From: Candidatus Gastranaerophilales bacterium
Lineage (GTDB): Bacteria > Cyanobacteriota > Vampirovibrionia > Gastranaerophilales > Gastranaerophilaceae
Reading direction: 5' to 3'
DNA length: 44,891 nt
Assembly (NCBI GenBank): GCA_944323145.1
Contig: CALURJ010000017.1
Location: 1-44,891 of the forward strand
Shown: positions 34,951 through 37,810 of the stretch, one piece after another
Position numbering within the stretch: the stretch's first letter is position 1
How the letters are laid out: each line of letters opens with the position of its first letter
The notes under the pieces: model-generated
What the model saw: the letters and a program-made list of their open reading frames with translations, nothing else
Databases searched by the model: none
Told to the model about the DNA's origin: nothing
Program-made: the position numbers and the translations under genes

Positions 34951-35976
34951 TTAATACGTCCTGTATTGGCTACCGCCTTTTATAATATCAAGAATCCCCT
35001 TGAACGATATTTCCAGAATATAATCAATTGCATCCTGTGTTTCATAGGCTATATGAGGGGTGATAATTACATTATCCATTTTAGCAAGTTCTTTTACTAC
35101 CCTCGCTTCTTCAAGACATTTTAAATCATTATTGAGTTTTTTCTCAAACTGGCTGCATTTAAAACTTAACTGTTCACACATAACCACATCCAGTGCTGCT
35201 CCGCCCAATTTATTTTCGTTTAACGCATTATAAAGTGCAATAGTATCCAAAATCTCTCCGCGTGATGTATTTATCACAAACGCTGTATCCTTCATCATTT
35301 CAAATTGTTTTTGCGAAATTAAATGAAAATTATTTCCGGTATAAGGCATGTGCAGTGTTAAAATATCGGATTGCTTTAATAAGGTGTCAAAATCAACATA
35401 TCTAACGTCATACTTTGAAATTAATTCCTGCTTTTTTGTTATATCATAAGTTAAAACTTTCATTCCGAATACACTTGCAAGTTTACAAACCGCAGAACCT
35501 ATCGCACCTGTCCCCATTACACCAAGAGTTAATTTTGATAGATCTCGCCCCAGAAAATTTGAACAAGACTCATTTTCTGAGAGAATATAGCGAGAAGCCG
35601 GAATAATTTTTCTAACAAGATTAATCATAAGTCCTATTGTAAATTGTGCAACAGATTTTGAGCCGTAACCCTCAACATTTATTACTGCAATATTTTTGGC
35701 TTCAGCAGTTTTTAAATTTATATGATTAACACCCGTGGAACGGGTGGAAATAATTCTTAGATTTTTAAAAGAATTTATAACATCTTCAGTTAACTCAGAA
35801 TCAATAAAAACACTCACAACCATAGTATGTTCAAGCTGCTCGAGAGGAAGATTTTTTACCGAATCCTCATTCAAACTTTCGCTGTAAAACGTTATATCAA
35901 AATTTTCAAACTTGTTATTTCCGAAAAATTTTCTCTCACTTTCACGGTAGTCAAAAACCAACATTTTTATAGACAT
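34951..35976 (-). CDS. D-2-hydroxyacid dehydrogenase (D-lactate dehydrogenase type)
   Basis: 341 aa. NAD-binding GVMGTGAIGSAVCKLA; catalytic Arg in NTSRGEILD; His in VIITPHIAY with the paired Glu upstream. The N-terminal SIKMLVFDYRESERKFF matches the D-LDH branch, so pyruvate to D-lactate is the likely reaction, regenerating NAD+ in fermentation; other 2-ketoacids are possible. The start is ATG 35976 with AAGGAGG; earlier frame positions lie in the leader. Its stop abuts the stop of convergent ubiE. Confidence 0.88.
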   Translation of the reverse strand: MSIKMLVFDYRESERKFFGNNKFENFDITFYSESLNEDSVKNLPLEQLEHTMVVSVFIDSELTEDVINSFKNLRIISTRSTGVNHINLKTAEAKNIAVINVEGYGSKSVAQFTIGLMINLVRKIIPASRYILSENESCSNFLGRDLSKLTLGVMGTGAIGSAVCKLASVFGMKVLTYDITKKQELISKYDVRYVDFDTLLKQSDILTLHMPYTGNNFHLISQKQFEMMKDTAFVINTSRGEILDTIALYNALNENKLGGAALDVVMCEQLSFKCSQFEKKLNNDLKCLEEARVVKELAKMDNVIITPHIAYETQDAIDYILEISFKGILDIIKGGSQYRTY

Positions 35977-36108
35977 TTTAAATTTCCTCCTTGAGGCATT
36001 ATCACTTAAATTAGCATTTATTCTATTACACAAAAGTACATAGTTTCAGAACAATTAATTAATATAAAGTTGAATGAAAAATGACCCAAAAAATTTTAGA
36101 ATAAAAAT

Positions 36109-36408
36109 GTAGAAAAAATTCAACTTCGTATCTCAAAGCCGGATCATCCGAGATATTTTCGGCCCCGGAGAACACAGTCCGGAATGTACATCTGTGTTCG
36201 TATTCGAAGCAGGTGACAGTGATAACCTGCACTAATTCCGGGGGTATAAGCGGCGGGGTACGGACGATTACCCGACTGGTCAAACCTTTCTGAGAAAACT
36301 TCCGAATATATTTTATTTTGCGGATAAAGAAAGGCTAAGCGCATCGTCGCAATCCCGGATGACGGTAATCGATGAACGCGGAATGGAAATGCATTCCGCG
36401 TTTTTTAT
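36109..36408 (+). ncRNA. Putative structured RNA, unassigned
   Basis: A GC-rich, gene-free island within 437 bases between two minus-strand genes. Foldable helices in order: TCTC...GAGA around CGGATCATCCG; CCCCGGA (about 36163) with TCCGGGG (about 36237) enclosing GAACACAG/CTGTGTTC and GCAGGT/ACCTGC hairpins; GGGTA/TACCC; CCTTTCT/AGAAAGG enclosing TCCG/CGGA; CGTC/GACG or CATCG/CGATG; then a terminator. ATGAAA and TAGAAT (36097-36102), spaced 17, could be its promoter. It lacks the hallmarks I know for RNase P, tmRNA, SRP RNA, 6S RNA and common riboswitches. Read on the minus strand it could instead be the leader of the 2-hydroxyacid dehydrogenase gene, but the T-run favours plus. Ends are approximate. 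Confidence 0.55.
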
Positions 36409-36409
36409 T
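36375..36409 (+). terminator. Terminator of the putative RNA
   Basis: AACGCGGAATG (36375-36385) and CATTCCGCGTT (36392-36402) form an 11-bp stem; TTTTTTATTTT follows. No T-run is present on the minus strand. Confidence 0.85.
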
Positions 36410-36413
36410 TTGC

Positions 36414-37739
36414 TTAGTTTTGTACAAATTTTATTAATTTTTTGATATCTTTATTCCAAACACCGTTCCAGTTGCGAATAATAATATCCGCAGGAGTTAT
36501 ACCGTTCAAAGCATATTCTTTTATCGGCTCTATAAATTTCTCTTCGCCGGTATCCATACCTATAAGAGATTTTTCCGCAATATACAAAATCTCTTTCACT
36601 ATGTCTTTTATCCTGTGATGTCCGATTTTAGAATTCAAGGCACTTTTGGGAACATTATACCTCAACTCTGAAAAATCTCTATATTCATAAGGGGCAAAAA
36701 GTTCTTCAACCTCATCCATTGCACCATTGTTATACAAAATTCCCTTGTAAATTGCAAGAATTGAATATTGCAAGTCTTTTCCCACACAATCATGGTTTCT
36801 TATCTCAAGAAAGTTGCGCAGACGGACTTCAGGAAAATAAAGATTTGCATGAAGTTTAAAATCGTCAATATCAGCGTCAAATCCCTCAAAACCATTCTGC
36901 ATAAACTGATTAAAGGTAATTTTTCCGTTTACGGGTATTGCACCTGATTCACGGTTAATAAATATCATCGGAGATTCAAGAACATAATCCACATATTCTT
37001 CAAACGAAAAATGATCGTCAATCTGCCCGACAAAGCCGCATCTGTCATTATCCGTATTGAGCCAGCTCAATGCCCTGAAACTTTTATAGCCGGTTTCCAC
37101 ACCGCCCCTGATTGGAGAGTTTGCAAACATTGCTGTCATAAAAGGAACCAGCTTGTTTGCAATTTTGAATTTGCGCATTGCATCTTCTTCACTCTCAAAA
37201 TCTATACAGCATTGAATACCCGCAGTTTCCGTCATCATTACGTCCGACAAAATTCCCCAGAGATATTTTGCCATAATTTTGTATCTCTTTTTAGGAATAA
37301 GATTTATAGACTTGTGTGTCGATAAAGGCGAAACCCCGTAATTTAAAAGTGTTATATTAAATTTATTCAGTATGGGTTTCAATTTTTTGTCTAAAGATGT
37401 TATTTTTGATTTTAATTCATCAATTGTTTTCTGCGGTTCAAGGCTCATCTCCATCTGGCAGCCGGGTTCAAGTGTAATTGTGTCATGAGCTTGCTTCAGA
37501 CCGATTATGTTGTAATCGTCCATTATATAGTCCCAGTTTTCTTCCCGTGCAAAATTTCTCAGAAAATTACAAATCCCGAATTCTGATGAGTAATCAACAG
37601 CCTTGGAAGTAACCGAAAATACAGGGAGTCTTTCGTATTCAATCCCGATTTTATATGTTTGAGAAGATTTACATCCTGCCTCAAATAATCTTATAATTTC
37701 TTTTTTGTTTAATTTGGTTTTAGTTTGTACGTTGTTCAC
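36414..37739 (-). CDS. Glutamate-cysteine ligase (GCS2 type)
   Basis: 441 aa. Ligates glutamate and cysteine, first step of glutathione or a related thiol. IGIEYERLPVF and the later regions DTITLEPGCQMEMSLEP and MTETAGIQCCIDFESEEDAM match the plant/proteobacterial GCS2 family, with the Glu residues that bind metal and ATP. The start was taken as GTG 37739, seven bases after AGGGGG; the longer frame begins upstream of the -10 box and cannot be the true start. A glutathione synthetase is not in the window. The related EgtA (gamma-glutamylcysteine for ergothioneine) cannot be excluded. Confidence 0.88.
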   Translation of the reverse strand: MNNVQTKTKLNKKEIIRLFEAGCKSSQTYKIGIEYERLPVFSVTSKAVDYSSEFGICNFLRNFAREENWDYIMDDYNIIGLKQAHDTITLEPGCQMEMSLEPQKTIDELKSKITSLDKKLKPILNKFNITLLNYGVSPLSTHKSINLIPKKRYKIMAKYLWGILSDVMMTETAGIQCCIDFESEEDAMRKFKIANKLVPFMTAMFANSPIRGGVETGYKSFRALSWLNTDNDRCGFVGQIDDHFSFEEYVDYVLESPMIFINRESGAIPVNGKITFNQFMQNGFEGFDADIDDFKLHANLYFPEVRLRNFLEIRNHDCVGKDLQYSILAIYKGILYNNGAMDEVEELFAPYEYRDFSELRYNVPKSALNSKIGHHRIKDIVKEILYIAEKSLIGMDTGEEKFIEPIKEYALNGITPADIIIRNWNGVWNKDIKKLIKFVQN

Positions 37740-37755
37740 AAGTGACCCCCTATCT

Positions 37756-37764
37756 ATTATAACA
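37756..37764 (-). promoter_or_regulatory. Extended -10 of the glutamate-cysteine ligase gene
   Basis: TGTTATAAT on the minus strand; transcription would start around 37749, giving a leader of about 10 bases that contains the AGGGGG ribosome site. It decides the GTG start at 37739. Confidence 0.6.
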
Positions 37765-37810
37765 TCCACAAAAGTAACAAAAAAAATTTCTTAAAACATT
37801 TACCTGTGTG

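Follow-up and report, generated by a model that had tools for sequence, protein, structure and literature searches.

A structured RNA family of Gastranaerophilales, probably derived from the 3' end of hsp20 mRNA, is retained at loci without hsp20

A GC-rich segment at positions 36109–36408 lies between two protein-coding genes of a Candidatus Gastranaerophilales genome and raises the questions of whether it encodes an RNA, what kind of RNA this is, and what purpose it serves. The window analyzed is the 44,891-nucleotide contig that contains the segment. According to a preliminary description made from the letters alone, the segment is a GC-rich island in AT-rich surroundings, with a closed multibranch helix (CCCCGGA/TCCGGGG) carrying two hairpins, a terminator, and no plausible gene inside, and all these observations hold. 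The GC content is 48%, compared with 36% for the whole window, and about 1% of equal-length stretches reach 48%. The multibranch helix is formed by residues 36164–36168 and 36238–36243 and contains the two hairpins, the terminator stem is followed by a U run, and there is no plausible gene within 36109–36408. The minimum free energy of the plus strand is −100.5 kcal/mol (z = −4.75 relative to dinucleotide shuffles, with none of 100 shuffles as good), and the minus strand folds more weakly. The choice of strand is decided by G-U pairs: standard pairs occupy 94.9% of the pair cells on the plus strand compared with 87.6% on the minus strand, and the plus strand is therefore the correct one. Because promoter boxes are located at 36069–36079 and 36097–36102, we place the start of the transcript at approximately 36109. 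The predicted transcript, for which there are no expression data, would extend to the end of the U run at approximately 36406, and is thus nearly equal to the segment as originally delimited.

By BLAST, 27 of 33 genomes in the window's genus carry the RNA, and 25 other genomes do not. A structure with nine helices, drawn by hand, was scored against 20 aligned sequences (alignment A3). Pairing is maintained in 94.9% of the cells, compared with 88.9% in shuffles and at most 52.1% with slid partners. Two-sided changes occur at 21 of the 47 pairs (8.4 in shuffles) and in 62 cells (20.1 in shuffles), and none of 500 shuffles reached the observed paired percentage, pair count, or cell count. Independent predictions by RNAalifold include P1, P6, P7, and the terminator. 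These four elements and P5 were also recovered when all five-column windows were scanned without guidance. A search for covariation among homologues, proposed in the preliminary description, thus identified compensatory changes, which indicate that the structure is more than a product of chance. The RNA encoded by residues 36109–36406 of the plus strand is almost certainly real and functional.

In the window's genus, the RNA is composed of a 5' domain closed by P1, inside which are P2, P3, and P4-P5-P6, and a 3' domain closed by P7, and helices P1 and P7 abut (Table 1). An unguided scan for an inter-domain pseudoknot in this genus did not establish any. A pairing of GCGGCG with CGCCGC, linking the junction and the 3' domain, was rejected, because the variation in relatives favors a local hairpin. 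Hammerhead-like and twister-like motifs that had been seen by eye were dropped, since the motif letters differ between homologues.

Table 1. Positions of the RNA, its structural elements, and neighboring genes in the window
Feature	Position	Strand	Basis or remark
Inferred full noncoding RNA transcript	36109–36406	+	Start from promoter, end from terminator; not experimental
Conserved upstream promoter box GTTGAATGAAA, common to hsp20-bearing loci	36069–36079	+	AATG[AG]A at 26/26 RNA-only loci
−10-like box TAGAAT, aligned to TTATTCT of hsp20-bearing loci	36097–36102	+	By-eye alignment, inference
Structured core P1 to P7	36125–36371	+	Match of covariance model R1, 249.5 bits
P1, 5' strand, pairs with 36255–36264	36125–36134	+	Covariation
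P1, 3' strand, pairs with 36125–36134	36255–36264	+	Covariation
P2, 5' strand GCCG in conserved core AAAGCCGGAUC, pairs with CGGC 36251–36254	36138–36141	+	Compensatory changes in other genera
P3 hairpin CCGA...UCGG	36148–36162	+	One pair A-U to G-C in 9/20 sequences
P4 multibranch subdomain CCCCGG/CCGGGG	36164–36243	+	In window's genus; missing from compact forms
P5 hairpin GAACACAG/CTGTGTTC	36170–36199	+	Unguided scan: five columns with two-sided changes
P6 hairpin GCAGGU/ACCUGC	36209–36230	+	One pair G-C to A-U in 8/20 sequences
3' domain closed by P7 (36265–36272/36364–36371), with P8, P9, and P10 inside	36265–36371	+	P8 register uncertain in window
Intrinsic terminator	36375–36406	+	Stem 36375–36385/36392–36402 and U run
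2-hydroxyacid dehydrogenase (PF02826/PF00389)	34951–36033	−	Divergent neighbor at every RNA locus reaching far enough
GCS2-type glutamate-cysteine ligase	36414–37769	−	Convergent neighbor; not constant among relatives

In other genera, the RNA has compact forms of approximately 100–125 nucleotides that lack P4–P6 and keep P1, P2, the P3 hairpin, and the 3' hairpin. The P2 pairing of GCCG with CGGC is replaced by other complementary pairs in some of these genera. Across genera, the core is 90.8% paired, compared with at most 49%. In the compact forms, the 3' hairpin contains a complement to the five bases after P3 in 31 of 31 sequences, which indicates a pseudoknot. The bases belong to five types (CGUAC, CAUGC, CGUGC, CGUGG, and CAUGU), and in a control, partners of the other types were present in only 9 of 124 trials. 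In 19 of the 31 sequences, the fold predicted for the 3' domain leaves at least four of the five partner bases unpaired. In genus g21, the pseudoknot partner is located in a hairpin loop instead, and the two strands covary (for example, ACUGGC/GCCAGU and AUCGGU/ACCGAU).

Three covariance models (R1, R2, and R3), built in succession from increasingly distant members, were used to search 383 genomes of the order, which appear to be mostly metagenome assemblies, and matched 44, 65, and 88 of them, respectively. Together, the models identified at least 109 of the 383 genomes, with a single copy in each among the matches listed. All the matches are within one family and include 12 genera, to which a 13th genus was added by eye. 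A few of the matches with E values close to 0.01 may be due to chance, and the tallies for members used in training are not independent, since the models were trained on them. All ten R3 matches that had not been used in building R3 are at the same locus. A search with R2 over 292 genomes of the phylum found nothing credible outside the family, and a weak match in a cyanobacterium (E = 0.0096 among the 292 genomes) was taken as chance.

The RNA could not be assigned to any known family. The Rfam search suggested in the preliminary description produced no match over the RNA at the gathering score, only chance-level matches up to E = 10 in the region 36000–36450, and only chance matches for 14 diverse relatives searched against Rfam 15. 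A search for tRNA and tmRNA in the window found none, and RF00013 (6S RNA) has no match there. SRP RNA, RNase P RNA, and tmRNA, which had been excluded by eye, were located on other contigs of the same genome. Contig C1 carries a probable 6S RNA (L040:1501–1680), the score of which, 43.3 bits, is just under the RF00013 gathering score. Because these copies and the 6S candidate are on other contigs, the RNA in the window is not RNase P RNA, tmRNA, SRP RNA, or 6S RNA. Together with the strong covariation and the family-wide conservation, this agrees with the original designation of an unassigned, lineage-specific structured noncoding RNA. As a separate observation, 6S RNA of Gastranaerophilales may be under-detected, as the candidate scores below the Rfam threshold.

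The typical order of elements at the locus is a divergent 2-hydroxyacid dehydrogenase gene, a shared promoter, hsp20, and the RNA. The dehydrogenase gene is located upstream on the opposite strand at 63 of 64 loci, and the remaining locus is cut by a contig end. The hsp20 gene is positioned between the dehydrogenase gene and the RNA at 38 of the 64 loci and is missing from 26, including the window. At 32 of the 38 loci, the hsp20 stop codon precedes the RNA by 0–21 nucleotides (median of about 8; one overlaps by one nucleotide). By position, the RNA fulfills the definition of a 3'UTR-derived RNA, which is located at the 3' end of a coding transcript, at these 38 loci and not in the window; co-transcription with hsp20 is inferred from position only. 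The gene downstream of the RNA is convergent in the window, and in relatives it differs or may have either orientation. A tandem-like array with units such as CATGATATAAAAAGTCATACGAACATTTACACAGTGGGGGAGT adjoins the RNA locus of one relative (L014:1271–1490).

Loci with hsp20 carry, in front of this gene, a block formed by NNNAATGAAA, a spacer of about 14–17 bases, and TTTATTCTRA; at loci without hsp20, the same block precedes the RNA. The element AATG[AG]A is present at 26 of the 26 RNA-only loci and in 24% of shuffles. It is also present at 34 of 37 hsp20 loci, a count that is inflated by the hsp20 start itself. The promoter and transcript start are inferred from sequence, without start mapping. 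Another conserved block, TTTATTCTATTACACAAAAGTACATA, is located beside the RNA promoter in the window (36017–36043) and in relatives, and is probably the promoter of the divergent dehydrogenase gene.

The history of the locus was followed on a quick tree of 82 dehydrogenase proteins, which cannot distinguish loss from gain. The presence of hsp20 changes 17 times, and 13 of the changes are forced by well-supported branches. The presence of the RNA changes once, in a clade of five genomes without RNA and hsp20. On the tree, 28 of 77 RNA-bearing loci lack hsp20, and hsp20 without the RNA was never found at the examined dehydrogenase loci of the family. The simpler reading of the hsp20 changes is that they are losses, because nearly all genera have hsp20 at an identical position and the RNA-only loci keep the promoter block. 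At locus L015, the hsp20 reading frame seems to have been excised cleanly. Other small heat-shock genes that were examined (L197–L200) encode clearly different proteins, and the linked hsp20 has therefore not merely moved, although one paralogue of the window's genome (C10) was outside the comparison. One of the examined sequences, L198 (contig C35 of the window's genome, 3,984 bases), is GC-rich and carries hsp20, unlike the AT-rich genome, and is probably assembly contamination. The five-genome clade belongs to the window's genus (L202, L205, L206, L208, and L209) and represents a natural knock-out. Since the RNA was lost there together with hsp20, it is dispensable in this clade.

The main finding, which was out of reach of the preliminary description, is the association of the RNA with hsp20 and the repeated loss of this gene. 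The RNA has been retained with its structure intact at loci without hsp20. Its pairing is 94.9% without hsp20 and 95.0% with hsp20, and compensatory changes are still seen within a clade devoid of hsp20, which argues that the RNA is selected on its own and not only for hsp20. Because hsp20 has vanished in many species where the RNA and its promoter were kept, the RNA itself matters to the cell. Its function is very probably not confined to hsp20.

We propose, with a probability of approximately 0.6, that the RNA is a lineage-specific trans-acting structured noncoding RNA that was born as the 3' end of hsp20 mRNA and uses the hsp20 promoter; evidence from transcripts, partners, or phenotypes is lacking. 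What the genomes themselves show is that the RNA has a conserved fold and a constant locus with a common upstream promoter block, and that it has repeatedly been retained where hsp20 is absent. At loci with hsp20, the RNA would be produced as the tail of the mRNA, from which it may then be matured, or it may be used while attached. At loci that lack the gene, its former promoter would produce the RNA alone, and we therefore expect the RNA to be stress-regulated. The rigid core, composed of P1/P2, P3, and the pseudoknot to the 3' hairpin, may associate under stress with a partner that is a protein or a ribonucleoprotein, and the bound RNA could serve as a scaffold or sequestering RNA, a suggestion based only on analogy with what is thought of 6S, Ms1, and raiA/ModT RNAs. 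Whether the RNA acts in trans as such a protein-binding or scaffold RNA, rather than as a base-pairing regulator, ribozyme, or ligand sensor, is evenly balanced in our estimate. More far-reaching, and tentative, is the possibility that it represents a class of catalytic RNA or ribonucleoprotein new to bacteria, selected as the main product of a stress operon, the optional chaperone gene of which was discarded many times independently. A base-pairing regulator, a ribozyme, and a purely cis-acting 3'UTR role are all ranked below a trans-acting structured RNA.

The 3'UTR-derived small RNAs of enteric bacteria are located at the 3' ends of coding transcripts, share their terminators, and base-pair with target mRNAs, usually with Hfq. 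The RNA described here similarly follows a coding gene, in this case a stress gene, with a terminator in common, and might regulate mRNAs by a seed. We consider this unlikely, since the conserved sequence is mostly paired or within the rigid core. The RNA also differs from the enteric small RNAs in its family-wide rigid pseudoknotted fold and in the repeated disappearance of its host gene. A search of 20 genomes with an Hfq model found no match, but the model is insensitive to cyanobacterial Hfq, as it also missed that of Synechococcus.

Alternatively, the RNA could be a cis-acting 3'UTR element that stabilizes, localizes, or thermally controls hsp20 mRNA and has no role without hsp20. The short distance from the hsp20 stop codon and the lack of hsp20 without the RNA at the examined loci are consistent with this possibility. 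ROSE-type RNA thermometers of hsp20 genes also tie an RNA structure to a small heat-shock gene; however, they are in the 5'UTR, over the ribosome-binding site, whereas the RNA described here follows the stop codon and is retained in the absence of hsp20. In a cis-acting role, P1 would be kept open by ribosomes terminating on hsp20, since the fold begins at the stop codon. The many independent changes in hsp20 presence, the undiminished pairing at loci without it, and the compensation in the hsp20-less clade make a purely cis-acting role improbable.

A self-cleaving ribozyme that frees itself from hsp20 mRNA would account for a compact pseudoknotted fold directly after the stop codon. Nevertheless, this is very unlikely, as none of the ribozyme families in Rfam matches the RNA, which is kept where no upstream message exists to be cut; there are no data on cleavage.

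Even less probable is a strongly diverged member of a known family, such as a second 6S-like RNA or raiA/ModT RNA, to which the similar size, single copy, and stress context would correspond. The raiA motif, or ModT RNA, of Bacillota and Actinomycetota is a pseudoknotted structured RNA with its own transcript, is often a neighbor of the stress-protein gene raiA, and has a molecular role that is still open; its published model contains two pseudoknots and eight helices (PMC11706538). However, the raiA/ModT covariance model in Rfam did not match region 36000–36450 up to E = 10, and raiA/ModT RNA occurs in other lineages and has comFC and raiA as neighbors. The 6S, Ms1, and CoRP RNAs bind RNA polymerase, and Ms1 and CoRP are lineage-restricted (PMC11077062). 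They are structured and comparable in size to the RNA in the window, but there are no polymerase-binding data for the latter, and the genome contains the separate 6S candidate. Neither the window nor the 14 relatives have Rfam matches beyond chance.

A metabolite-binding riboswitch or attenuator, as implied by the term "riboswitch-like" in the preliminary description, would fit the complexity, pseudoknot, and 3' terminator of the RNA but is highly improbable, because a riboswitch precedes the gene that it controls and has the same orientation, whereas this RNA ends in its own terminator with nothing downstream on the same strand to control in the window and no gene consistently placed for control in relatives; ligand-binding data do not exist.

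The RNA family appears to be new and to belong among orphan structured RNAs and 3'UTR-born RNAs; its unusual part is that the host gene has been discarded repeatedly. We found no description of the RNA in the open-access literature, supplements not included, and no noncoding RNA work in the literature on gut Gastranaerophilales. Orphan structured RNAs are among the few large unknowns left in bacterial gene content, and most of them come without a clue. Here, the clue is that one promoter is inferred to drive either hsp20 and the RNA or the RNA alone, with the chaperone gene removed many times. With this clue, the purpose of the RNA beyond hsp20 is directly testable. The locus documents a likely route from a 3'UTR to an independent RNA gene and provides the gut Gastranaerophilales with a well-defined RNA family for which covariance models are ready.

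The closest relatives of the GCS2-type neighbor encoded in the window are from metagenome-assembled genomes labeled Candidatus Gastranaerophilales (Melainabacteria), mostly from guts. Three entries titled Fusobacterium sp. CAG:439, Muribaculaceae, and Heliobacteriaceae (L048, L096, and L117) contain GCS2 of the Gastranaerophilales type and are likely to be mislabeled or misbinned.
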